A stretch of 64,000 nucleotides of DNA, taken from assembly GCF_023703325.1 (NCBI RefSeq), contig NZ_JAMQGM010000016.1, forward strand, positions 1-64,000. The letters run 5' to 3'. The notes under the pieces were generated by a model. The model made no database searches and was not told the origin of the DNA. It saw nothing but the letters and a program-made list of their open reading frames with translations. Position numbers and translations under genes: made by a program. This document shows positions 10,409 through 12,842 of this stretch, piece by piece. How positions within the stretch are numbered: position 1 is the stretch's first letter; each line of letters starts with the position of its first letter. This DNA is from Streptomyces meridianus (GTDB taxonomy: Bacteria; Actinomycetota; Actinomycetes; Streptomycetales; Streptomycetaceae).

Positions 10409-10747
10409 TCAGGACCGGACGGCCGTCTCGCTGTCCGGATAGAGAGGCAGGATCTGGTCGAGGCCGATCATGCGCAGAACGCGCAGGGTGTGGGCCGGTA
10501 CCGCGGCCAGTGCGATGTCGGCCTCGGCGGAGTACGCGTGGTTGCGGGCTGCGATGAGGGCGGTGATGCCGCTGGAGTCGCAGAATTCCATGCCGGCCAG
10601 GTCGAGTACGAGGCGCTGGCCCGGCCGGAAGGCGAGCGTGGTGACCTGCTCGCGCAGTTCGGTGGCGTTGGCATAGTCGAGTGCGCCGATGACCTCCAGA
10701 ACGGGACCGGTCATGGCGTCTCGGGCTGTGATCTTCAGCGGGCTCAT
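10409..10747 (-). CDS. STAS-domain anti-anti-sigma factor (RsbV-like)
   Basis: A 112-residue single STAS domain. Proteins of this type bind anti-sigma kinases when unphosphorylated and so release a sigma factor. The segment LDLAGMEFCDSSGITAL holds the conserved DSSG loop, in which a serine is the usual phosphorylation site. The ATG at 10747 overlaps the stop of the upstream PP2C phosphatase by four bases (ATGA), indicating translational coupling. The phosphatase encoded just before it is therefore the likely enzyme that dephosphorylates this protein. No anti-sigma kinase (RsbW type) or sigma factor gene is in the window, so the partner must be encoded elsewhere. Confidence 0.9.
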   Translation of the reverse strand: MSPLKITARDAMTGPVLEVIGALDYANATELREQVTTLAFRPGQRLVLDLAGMEFCDSSGITALIAARNHAYSAEADIALAAVPAHTLRVLRMIGLDQILPLYPDSETAVRS

Positions 10748-12042
10748 TCCGGGTTTCTCGTCGCAGGGGAGGTGGCGGGGCGTACGGGGACGCCGAGAGC
10801 GAGCAGGGCGGTGTCGTCGTCGAGGCCGTCGCCGAAGCCGTTCAGCAGACCCGTCAGGGCATGGATGACGGCCTGCGGGGATCGGCCGGCCTGGTGGGCG
10901 GCGAAGGCGAGCAGGCTGTCCTCCCCGAACAGCGCGGTGCGGTCTTCGCCGGTGCGGGCCTCGGTGAGCCCGTCGGTGTAGAGCAGGAGGGTGTCGCCGG
11001 CGTCGAGGGTGGTGGTGGCGGTGGCGAAGTGTGCGTCCGGCAGGATGCCGACGAAGAGGCCGCCGGGCGTGGGCAAGTAGTCCGCCGTGCCGTCGGCGCG
11101 CAGCACCAGGGCCGGAGGATGACCGCCTGCGGCGAGGTGGACGGTGACTTGCCCGGTCGCGGGGTCCGGTTCGAGCGTGCCGAAGACGGCGGTGCAGTAG
11201 CGCGGGTCGCCGCTGCCGGTGTAGCGCTCGTGGAGCACGCTGTTGAGTGTGCTCAGGGCGCATACGGGATCGGGGTCGTGCAGGGCGGCGGCACGCAGGG
11301 TGTAGCGGGTCAGTGACGTGAGCGCTGCGGCCTGCGGCCCCTTGCCGCACACGTCGCCGAGGAAGAACGCGAAGCGGTTGCCGTCGAGGGGGAACACGTC
11401 GTAGAAATCGCCGCCGAGCCGGTCGGGCGAGGCGGCGTGGTAATGGGCGGCCGCTTCCATGCCCGGGATCGACGGCAGGATGTCGGGCAGCAGTGACTGC
11501 TGGAGCACCGCGAGGGCATTCTGCAGCCGGGCGCGGTCGGCTTCGGCCTGTTTGCGTGCCTCTTCGGCCGCCTTCCGGCGCCGCAGGAGTTCCTCCTCGT
11601 AGGAGCGGCGGTCCCGGGCGTCGAAGACGGTGGCGCGGATCAGCAGCGGCTCGCCGGTACTGCCGTGCTTGACCACCGAGGAGACCAGCACCGGTATCCG
11701 GCCGCCGCCGGTCTGCTTGATCTCCAGGGCGATCCCGCTGATCTCGCCCTGCATCCGGAGCAACGGCGCGAAGTGGGTTTCGTGGTAGAGCTTGCCGCCC
11801 ACGGTCAGCAGGTCGGTGAACCGCATCCGGCCCACGACCGCCTCGCGTTCCAGGCCGAGCCAGCCCAGCAGCGTGCCGTTGATCTTCGCGATGGTGCCGT
11901 CCATCAGCGTGGACAGATAGCCGCACGGCGCGGACTCGTACAGTTCCTCGGCGCTGTCCTCCAACAGTGCGGCGAATACCGCGTCCGACGTCTCGTCGCC
12001 GGCACGGTGCGGGTCGGGCTGCTGGTCGGCGCGGCACATCAT
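10744..12042 (-). CDS. rsbP: PAS-PP2C serine/threonine phosphatase (RsbP-like)
   Basis: A 432-residue phosphatase. The N-terminal part (about 30-150) is a PAS sensor domain with the typical SAPCGYLSTL and INGTLLGWLG segments. A charged coiled-coil linker (about 150-190) follows, then a SpoIIE/PP2C domain with the metal-binding motifs GGDFYDVF, GDVCGKG and DDDTALL. This is the architecture of Bacillus RsbP, which removes phosphate from the STAS protein under energy stress. ATG 12042 is preferred because it overlaps the stop of the upstream hydrolase by four bases; the frame could extend further but would run inside that gene. It sits between an RsbQ-like hydrolase and a STAS protein. Confidence 0.92.
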   Translation of the reverse strand: MMCRADQQPDPHRAGDETSDAVFAALLEDSAEELYESAPCGYLSTLMDGTIAKINGTLLGWLGLEREAVVGRMRFTDLLTVGGKLYHETHFAPLLRMQGEISGIALEIKQTGGGRIPVLVSSVVKHGSTGEPLLIRATVFDARDRRSYEEELLRRRKAAEEARKQAEADRARLQNALAVLQQSLLPDILPSIPGMEAAAHYHAASPDRLGGDFYDVFPLDGNRFAFFLGDVCGKGPQAAALTSLTRYTLRAAALHDPDPVCALSTLNSVLHERYTGSGDPRYCTAVFGTLEPDPATGQVTVHLAAGGHPPALVLRADGTADYLPTPGGLFVGILPDAHFATATTTLDAGDTLLLYTDGLTEARTGEDRTALFGEDSLLAFAAHQAGRSPQAVIHALTGLLNGFGDGLDDDTALLALGVPVRPATSPATRNPE

Positions 12043-12842
12043 CGCAGACCCGCCAGGAACTCCACGAGTGCCTGGTTGGTGGCTGCGGGCGCGGACAGAT
12101 GCGGGCAGTGCCCGCTCGCCTCCAGAGTGATCAGCACGGAGCCGGGAATCGCCTCGTGGACGAAGGCTCCGACACCCTGGGGAGCGATGACGTCCTGGGT
12201 GCATTCCAGCACCAGCGTCGGCACCCGCACCCTCTTCAGATCCTCCCGGGAATCCGACAGGAACGTCGTCCGGGCGAAGACTCGCGCCATGTCCGGATCG
12301 GTGGCGCAGAAACTGTTCTTCAGCTCCTCGCCGAGTTCGGGCCGCTCCGCGTTGCCCATGATCGCCGGAGCCATCGCCGCCGACCAGCCCAGGTAGTTCG
12401 ACTCCAGCGATGCCAGCAGCTCGTCGATGTCGTCGGCGCCGAACCCGCCCCGGTAGCCGTCGTCGTCCACGTAGCGCGGAGACGGGGCGACCATCACCAG
12501 TGCGCCGATGCGCTCCGGGGCCGCGTCGGCGGCCAGTGCACCGATCATCGCGCTCACGGAATGGCCGACGAAGACCGCGTCGCGCAGGTCGAGCGCGTCA
12601 CACACCTCCACCGCATCGCGCGCATAGCCGTCCAGGGAGGAGTAACGATCCTCCGAGAATGCGGAGGCGTCCGATCGGCCCGAACCCACGTAGTCGAACA
12701 TCACGACCCGGTAGTCCTCGGCCAGGGCCGGCACCGTCAGCCGCCACATGTTCTGGTCGCAGCCGAACCCGTGAGCCAGCACCACCGACGGCCCGTGCGG
12801 GTTACCGGTGACGGTGACGTTGTTCCTGCGGACGATATCCAT
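12039..12842 (-). CDS. rsbQ: RsbQ-like alpha/beta hydrolase, stress-signalling partner
   Basis: A 267-residue alpha/beta hydrolase that closely follows Bacillus subtilis RsbQ (269 residues). The oxyanion segment [10 protein letters not shown], the [10 protein letters not shown] loop and the nucleophile elbow GHSVSAM with Ser95 are all present, as are an acid in CTQDVIAP and the catalytic histidine in SGHCPH. RsbQ is required for the PAS phosphatase RsbP to activate the sigma-B pathway during energy starvation and is thought to supply or process a small hydrophobic ligand. Here it is the first gene of a tight operon with exactly that phosphatase, overlapping by four bases. It also resembles plant D14/KAI2-type receptors in fold. 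The start at 12842 gives the standard family N-terminus. Confidence 0.92.

Follow-up and report, generated by a model that had tools for sequence, protein, structure and literature searches.

A three-gene operon with overlapping reading frames

The window analyzed here is a stretch of 64,000 nucleotides from Streptomyces meridianus (assembly GCF_023703325.1, contig NZ_JAMQGM010000016.1, positions 1 to 64,000). It carries on its minus strand three open reading frames for an RsbQ-type alpha/beta hydrolase (12039..12842, 267 amino acids), an RsbP-type phosphatase made of a PAS domain, a long helix and a PP2C/SpoIIE domain (10744..12042, 432 amino acids) and a STAS-domain anti-anti-sigma protein (10409..10747, 112 amino acids), transcribed in that order. 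The hydrolase stop and the phosphatase start share an ATGA (12039..12042), as do the phosphatase stop and the STAS start (10744..10747). The frames and both overlaps lie where an earlier note on this DNA had placed them. Our survey for RsbQ in 297 genomes of the family (E <= 1e-40) found it in 118, including the source genome; the family counts given below refer to regions of about 15 kb around 129 other RsbQ loci, a set from which a broken second copy in one genome (G262) was excluded. In the relatives, 115 of 128 loci show the same -4 overlap between RsbQ and the phosphatase, and 80 of 99 show it between the phosphatase and STAS, as counted with a script that picks the start codon nearest the stop and is therefore biased toward short gaps. 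Overlaps at both junctions exceed chance. Thus, the RsbQ-type sensor, the RsbP-type phosphatase and the STAS protein form a compact operon that is real and widely conserved.

The hydrolase has Bacillus subtilis RsbQ (1wom) as its top match in the PDB (E 5.9e-86), with 130 of 260 aligned residues identical (50%). Its S95, D217 and H245 align with S98, D221 and H249 of the 1wom chain, which we take to be S96, D219 and H247 in the native numbering of RsbQ. The intact Ser-Asp-His triad that the earlier note had read in the translation is thereby confirmed, and it is invariant in the family relatives (129/129). The matches that follow RsbQ are Olei00960 (3qvm) and then plant chains of the KAI2 and D14 types, at E about 1e-59 to 1e-44. 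By sequence, the hydrolase is assigned to the RsbQ/KAI2/D14 group.

The phosphatase has a predicted PAS domain at its N-terminus (residues about 33-141, 11620..11946), which scores 26.1 bits against TIGR00229 (cut-off 22.9) and 25.9 bits against Pfam PAS_9, just below the 27-bit cut-off. Residues 142-184 (11491..11619) form a helical linker and candidate coiled coil between this domain and a PP2C domain (residues about 189-419, 10786..11478) matching Pfam SpoIIE (PF07228, E 8.9e-48). An AlphaFold2 model built from 31 sequences (mean predicted local distance difference test score, pLDDT, 81.3; predicted template modelling score, pTM, 0.62) shows strands and helices in PAS order, one 43-residue helix for the linker and a PP2C fold. 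Asp212, Asp230, Asp357 and Asp409/410 of the PP2C domain, which presumably bind metal as in other members of that family, are kept in 105 to 107 of 107 aligned relatives (two rows are gapped there). The PAS residues Cys40, Tyr86, His90 and Pro93 are kept in 105 of these 107 rows, the remaining two being gaps. Residue counts cover the rows above score limits of 460 bits for the phosphatase (107) and 60 bits for the STAS protein (98). The nearest solved fold by Foldseek E-value is RssB, and the top VIA-align match is the phosphatase-kinase structure of Rv1364c (3ke6; Z 26.4, root-mean-square deviation 2.2, 220 residues aligned, in the PP2C part), which is also the top solved match by sequence. 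Both methods group the PP2C part with RssB, SiaA, SpoIIE and the Rv1364c structure; the PP2C domain dominates these comparisons, which makes the lack of a solved RsbP PAS domain among the matches uninformative.

The PAS domain was also compared with the type that partners with RsbQ. In a by-eye alignment with B. subtilis RsbP, Cys40, Leu43, Leu79, Lys84, Tyr86, His90 and Pro117 presumably fit RsbP in identity or class, with Gly103 taking the place of RsbP Glu72 and His87 the place of Cys56. The RsbP sequence used agrees with the ten residues named in the paper that defines the RsbQ-PAS module. The domain ends in FDARDRR and has no DIT motif. The accessible text of that paper describes a bipartite module, defined from 45 adjacent RsbQ-PAS pairs, whose PAS domain lacks the DIT motif and is marked by nine distinguishing residues, with a coiled-coil linker of at least 21 residues in 36 of the 45 proteins and a PPM phosphatase, a histidine kinase or a diguanylate cyclase as output (Nadezhdin et al., 2011; PMC3183031). 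In gene order and domain content the operon agrees with this module: a triad-bearing RsbQ homologue is encoded directly upstream of a protein with an N-terminal PAS domain (by TIGR00229 and the model) and a PPM/SpoIIE phosphatase as its output domain.

The product of the third gene scores above the ant_ant_sig cut-off and carries a candidate phosphoserine, Ser58, in the sequence FCDSSG. The phosphorylatable serine of partner-switching STAS proteins sits in a D-S-S/T-G motif, and Ser58 stands in this context. It is conserved in all 98 aligned relatives, followed by Ser in 81, Thr in 16 and Ala in 1.

Conservation of gene order and the role of the STAS gene

The RsbQ-PP2C-STAS order, proposed for checking in the earlier note, is not specific to this strain, which would have told against the note's reading. 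RsbQ has the phosphatase as its immediate downstream neighbour in 127 of the 129 family loci, and a STAS gene comes after the phosphatase in 99 (profile threshold E 1e-3; the match is partial in L043 and doubtful in L164). In a named set of 80 loci, the best 80 of 576, which overlaps the family set, the phosphatase comes next in 79 and STAS after it in 68. The order is present, for example, in loci of S. rochei (L288) and S. griseus (L336). In the two exceptions within the family, the contig ends (L150) or the phosphatase is largely absent (L071). Within L071 (7807-8298, plus strand), an intact RsbQ is followed by the start of the PAS domain, which runs in frame into STAS, the rest of the PAS and PP2C domains being absent; this is either a deletion of natural origin or a fusion of PAS to STAS.

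Adjacency of the hydrolase and the phosphatase extends beyond the family. RsbQ is present in 74 of the 394 class-level genomes and in 21 of the 296 phylum-level genomes (same-genus genomes included). We examined 40 of the 74 RsbQ loci outside the family: a full PAS-PP2C protein comes next in 33, a partial or PAS-only protein in 3 (one at a contig end) and neither in 4. This pairing bears on the idea that the hydrolase is mainly an enzyme of metabolite turnover, that the PAS domain controls the phosphatase by itself and that co-transcription couples only their expression. In its favour, PAS domains often bind ligands or gases, and the triad is conserved without exception. Against it, RsbQ and the PAS-phosphatase adjoin in all but two of the 129 family loci, and outside the family RsbQ has a full PAS-PP2C protein beside it in 33 of 40. 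In Bacillus, an F55A change in the PAS domain breaks its contact with RsbQ. Furthermore, the triad of B. subtilis RsbQ is required and the protein contacts the PAS domain, according to the consulted parts of the defining paper, which also hold direct RsbQ-PAS contact to be necessary for signalling (PMC3183031). We regard a mainly metabolic role of the hydrolase as very unlikely.

The STAS gene is not in place in 30 of the 129 family loci, of which 28 keep the phosphatase. Two of the 30 (L082 and L150) are cut off by the end of a contig; in L113 a STAS gene stands about 1.2 kb farther along, and in L071 the STAS sequence is joined to the beginning of PAS. The remaining loci can dispense with STAS or rely on a different STAS protein. 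Beyond the family, STAS is present in only 6 of the 40 loci: directly after the phosphatase in five, all from family f17, and in L248 after a phosphatase-kinase fusion. Of the 34 loci without it (one of them, L243, at a contig end), 27 keep the full PAS-PP2C protein. The L248 locus (7837-10121, plus strand) encodes RsbQ, a SpoIIE-HATPase_c_2 fusion protein with weak PAS and GAF matches in front of its phosphatase-kinase part, and then STAS with an ATGA overlap. L248 and L166 were also suspected of carrying RsbQ fusions, which differing reading frames ruled out; the phosphatase-kinase fusion of L248 stands.

Such loci suggest an alternative in which the phosphatase acts mainly in trans on other STAS proteins, with the operon's own STAS protein as an extra or competing substrate. 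The source genome encodes six ant_ant_sig proteins above the cut-off, the operon's included, and a STAS protein on contig C14, which we take to be BldG, would be an example of a trans substrate. Against this reading stand the conservation of the -4 overlap to STAS (80/99) and the tendency of this type of STAS protein to occur together with RsbQ. With matches taken down to E <= 1e-15, the limit of the search, the type is found in 98 of 118 RsbQ-positive and 15 of 179 RsbQ-negative family genomes, and at E <= 1e-22, a limit chosen after the table was seen, in 94 and 3, respectively (hand counts, source genome included). We thus consider a substrate mainly in trans unlikely. Additional copies of the STAS type lie elsewhere in several RsbQ-positive genomes, and the three genomes that have the type at the stricter limit but lack RsbQ (no match at E <= 1e-40) are G227 (contig C14), G285 (contig C35) and G130 (contig C220). 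The three operon proteins show correlated pairwise distances across 81 loci (Spearman 0.86, 0.59 and 0.66; permutation maximum 0.17), as expected if the three genes travel together, although shared genome descent would also produce the correlation. These comparisons indicate that the STAS gene is part of the unit.

Linked sigma factors and kinases

The earlier note called the module complete, which is wrong in that the kinase and the sigma factor are absent from the locus. Neither a HATPase_c_2 match (RsbW-type kinase) nor a SigBFG match (SigB family) is present on the contig of the window (C8, 129,118 bases). The source genome has 57 HATPase_c_2 matches at E <= 0.001, 43 of them above the cut-off, and seven SigBFG matches above the cut-off, all on other contigs. 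The same note described a kinase-free operon feeding an unlinked kinase and sigma factor; this design holds for the source contig, but several relatives carry either or both genes beside the operon, and in one other actinobacterium (L248) the kinase is fused to the phosphatase.

The linkage to sigma factor genes exceeds expectation. A SigB-family gene lies within about 7 kb of RsbQ in 13 of the 129 loci, compared with 2.07 expected (Poisson P 3e-7). The observed genes score above 200 bits against a profile of the seven SigBFG genes of the source genome and lie within the fetched flanks, and the expectation was derived from 60 RsbQ-positive genomes of the genus (488.9 Mb in total), which contain 544 TIGR02980 matches. 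The P value is approximate, with kinship uncorrected and different profiles behind the observed and expected numbers. Four loci (L042, L268 of S. hilarionis, L278 and L290) have the sigma factor, RsbQ, phosphatase, STAS and kinase genes in this order on one strand, and in L072 the order is sigma factor, kinase, RsbQ, phosphatase and STAS. The kinase and sigma factor were confirmed with Pfam in L042 and L072 and rest on our own profiles in the other loci, where genes may intervene. A same-strand sigma factor gene starts no more than about 1.5 kb upstream of RsbQ in seven loci (L042, L066, L070, L072, L268, L278 and L290), with intervening genes possible and the kinase standing between the two in L072.

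The neighbours also resemble one another. The linked sigma factors of L040, L042 and L072 are 81-93% identical to each other and at most 65% identical to any SigBFG protein of the source genome, and the small kinases adjoining L040, L072, L101, L104 and L164 are mutually related. The family of small RsbW-type kinases to which they belong (A1) is found in 152 of the 297 family genomes, with up to nine matches per genome; it is present in 90 of 118 RsbQ-positive versus 62 of 179 RsbQ-negative genomes (Fisher P 1.3e-12, a value that ignores kinship and genome size).

The surplus of kinases in the source genome, 43 HATPase_c_2 proteins to 7 SigBFG proteins, means that most have no SigB-family partner of their own. 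The STAS protein may, then, control a kinase or another HATPase protein with a different target, and the output would be something other than a sigma factor. The enrichment of SigB-family genes beside the operon and the same-strand sigma factors close upstream of RsbQ in seven loci argue against this possibility, to which we give a small chance of being right. A partner-switching output to a SigB-family sigma factor is the best-supported reading.

Promoter region and chromosomal setting

Upstream of the operon is a putative extended -10 element (TGA-GAGACT, 12850..12858, minus strand), 7 nucleotides before the ATG of RsbQ. The corresponding pattern (TG, 1-2 nucleotides, N-A-NNN-T, ending 5-9 nucleotides before the RsbQ start) occurs in 112 of 128 upstream regions, the window included, compared with a mean of 1.5 and a maximum of 4 in shuffled sequences, although it was chosen after the regions were seen and the loci are related. 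A plainer hexamer pattern is found in 81 of 128 (3.8 by shuffling). Leaderless mRNAs are known in Streptomyces, and a conserved element of this type abutting the start codon suggests that the operon has a leaderless transcript. The pattern could alternatively be a GGAGG-like ribosome site, which is seen in many loci; however, its A and T persist, by eye, in several loci that lack GGAGG. No sigma-70 match with a -35 element was found upstream of RsbQ. A single terminator match, on the plus strand within the hydrolase gene, was no better than those in shuffles, and a search at the Rfam gathering score found no RNA element between 9000 and 14500.

The operon is flanked by a pyruvate carboxylase-like gene (5405-8806) and an apparent monomeric isocitrate dehydrogenase gene (about 13930-16140); elsewhere in the window, a plus-strand gene (470-1915) encodes a 481-amino-acid protein resembling glyceraldehyde-3-phosphate dehydrogenase. 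These names were read from the translations alone. A functional link to the flanking carboxylase and dehydrogenase is not supported: the six flanking genes of the window are near none of 209 other RsbQ loci. Among the relatives, the flanks match those of any other locus in 51 of 126 cases upstream and 46 of 122 downstream. With so few flanks shared, the operon acts like a cassette that has no fixed place on the chromosome.

A proposed route from RsbQ to SigB-family sigma factors

We propose that the operon is probably a portable input cassette for partner switching, in which the signal passes from RsbQ through the phosphatase, the STAS protein and a kinase to a SigB-family sigma factor. RsbQ would bind a small ligand, perhaps hydrolyzing it slowly, and in its ligand-bound form contact the PAS domain of the RsbP-type phosphatase. 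The signal would then run along the helical linker and switch on the PP2C domain, and the active phosphatase would dephosphorylate the co-transcribed STAS protein at Ser58. Unphosphorylated STAS could bind one or more RsbW-type kinases and so free a SigB-family sigma factor. In the source strain the kinase and sigma factor would act from elsewhere in the genome; in some relatives they would be encoded beside the operon. Every biochemical step of this route is inferred from the RsbQ/RsbP/RsbV/RsbW/SigB pathway of B. subtilis and transferred to a locus for which gene order, overlaps, domains, intact catalytic and phosphorylation residues, wide conservation and occasional linkage to sigma factor and kinase genes are observed directly.

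Several observations weigh against the proposed cassette. The STAS gene is missing from its place in nearly a quarter of the family loci (30/129) and in most of those examined outside the family, and the contig of the window lacks both a kinase and a SigB-family gene. The best of the seven SigBFG genes in the source genome is 56-72% identical to each linked sigma factor. An A1-type kinase was not found in the source genome at E <= 1e-25 (13 of 95 first-look candidates scored), nor was a specific partner among the 30 of its 43 kinases for which a comparison with the linked kinases was made. There is no sign either that a SigB-type sigma factor autoregulates the operon, since promoters of this type are not in excess before RsbQ: the motif GNNT-N14-16-GGGTA[CT] is found in 2 of 128 regions (2.5 by shuffling), and two looser or stricter forms in 0 and 1 of 128 (0.4 and 2.2).

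A bolder reading makes the cassette a hormone receptor, with a KAI2/D14-like hydrolase that would sense a butenolide or gamma-butyrolactone made by Streptomyces or by plants and act through the phosphatase and STAS protein on SigB-family sigma factors. It is suggested by the placement of the hydrolase in the RsbQ/KAI2/D14 group, by the production of butenolides in Streptomyces and by the three-gene order in S. rochei and S. griseus. Streptomyces make butenolide autoregulators according to the accessible portions of two papers (PMC5744401, PMC12301235). We hold this reading to be speculative and improbable. If true, it would mean that Streptomyces perceive butenolides by a second route, one that does not use TetR proteins, and would tie their chemical signalling to sigma factor control via a relative of plant hormone receptors.

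Comparison with known systems

The pairing of RsbQ with an RsbP-type phosphatase is not new in actinomycetes and was already published for Streptomyces in 2011: the sections of the module paper available to us list two Streptomyces species with two copies each and a phosphatase output (PMC3183031). They also give the target of the module as known in B. subtilis only and doubt a response to energy limitation even in Bacillus. The "energy stress" label of the earlier note has no basis here. The word STAS does not appear in the main text of the module paper, and the third gene and the linked sigma factor and kinase genes are not described in it as far as that text goes. A conserved third gene thus names a candidate substrate of the phosphatase in Streptomyces, where the target was previously unknown, and the relatives with linked sigma factor and kinase genes name candidate outputs, making the whole chain testable in one cluster, such as the gene set of L042, L268 or L072. 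The literature searched gave no account of an RsbQ-phosphatase-STAS operon, which is weak evidence of absence with subscription papers mostly outside the search. In one paper, SCO3690 and the orthologue in S. lividans are likened to RsbQ, and a deletion strain is listed in a table (PMC6295645).

Like the RsbQ-RsbP pair of B. subtilis, the operon has a hydrolase gene upstream of one for a PAS-helix-PP2C phosphatase, with a hydrolase half identical to 1wom. Unlike that pair, it includes STAS as a third member, joined by an ATGA overlap; Bacillus RsbV is encoded away from RsbQ-RsbP. The B. subtilis proteins are described in a further source consulted in part (PMC7522486). The rsbB-rsbA-sigB and arsI-prsI-sigI sets of Streptomyces consist of a STAS protein, an RsbW-type kinase and a SigB-family sigma factor, and no RsbQ-phosphatase input is mentioned for them in the accessible text (PMC8346170); the operon, in contrast, has the input and lacks the kinase and sigma factor. 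For S. coelicolor, the same text counts 44 phosphatases of the RsbU/RsbP type beside 9 SigB, 45 RsbW and 17 RsbV homologues, and it reports cross-talk involving BldG (PMC8346170). The plant butenolide receptors KAI2 and D14 belong to the same alpha/beta hydrolase subfamily, whose triad is intact here, but signal via an F-box protein rather than a phosphatase, as stated in the part of the source consulted (PMC3531792).

The fused protein Rv1364c has the same functional parts, and its structure 3ke6 is the top VIA-align match to the phosphatase model. Rv1364c carries PAS and STAS ends on a phosphatase-kinase core, whereas the operon has separate genes, no kinase and an added RsbQ. The L248 locus, with RsbQ, a phosphatase-kinase fusion and STAS, is intermediate between the two. 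The operon is common in the family and extends the known RsbQ-PAS module rather than founding a new one.

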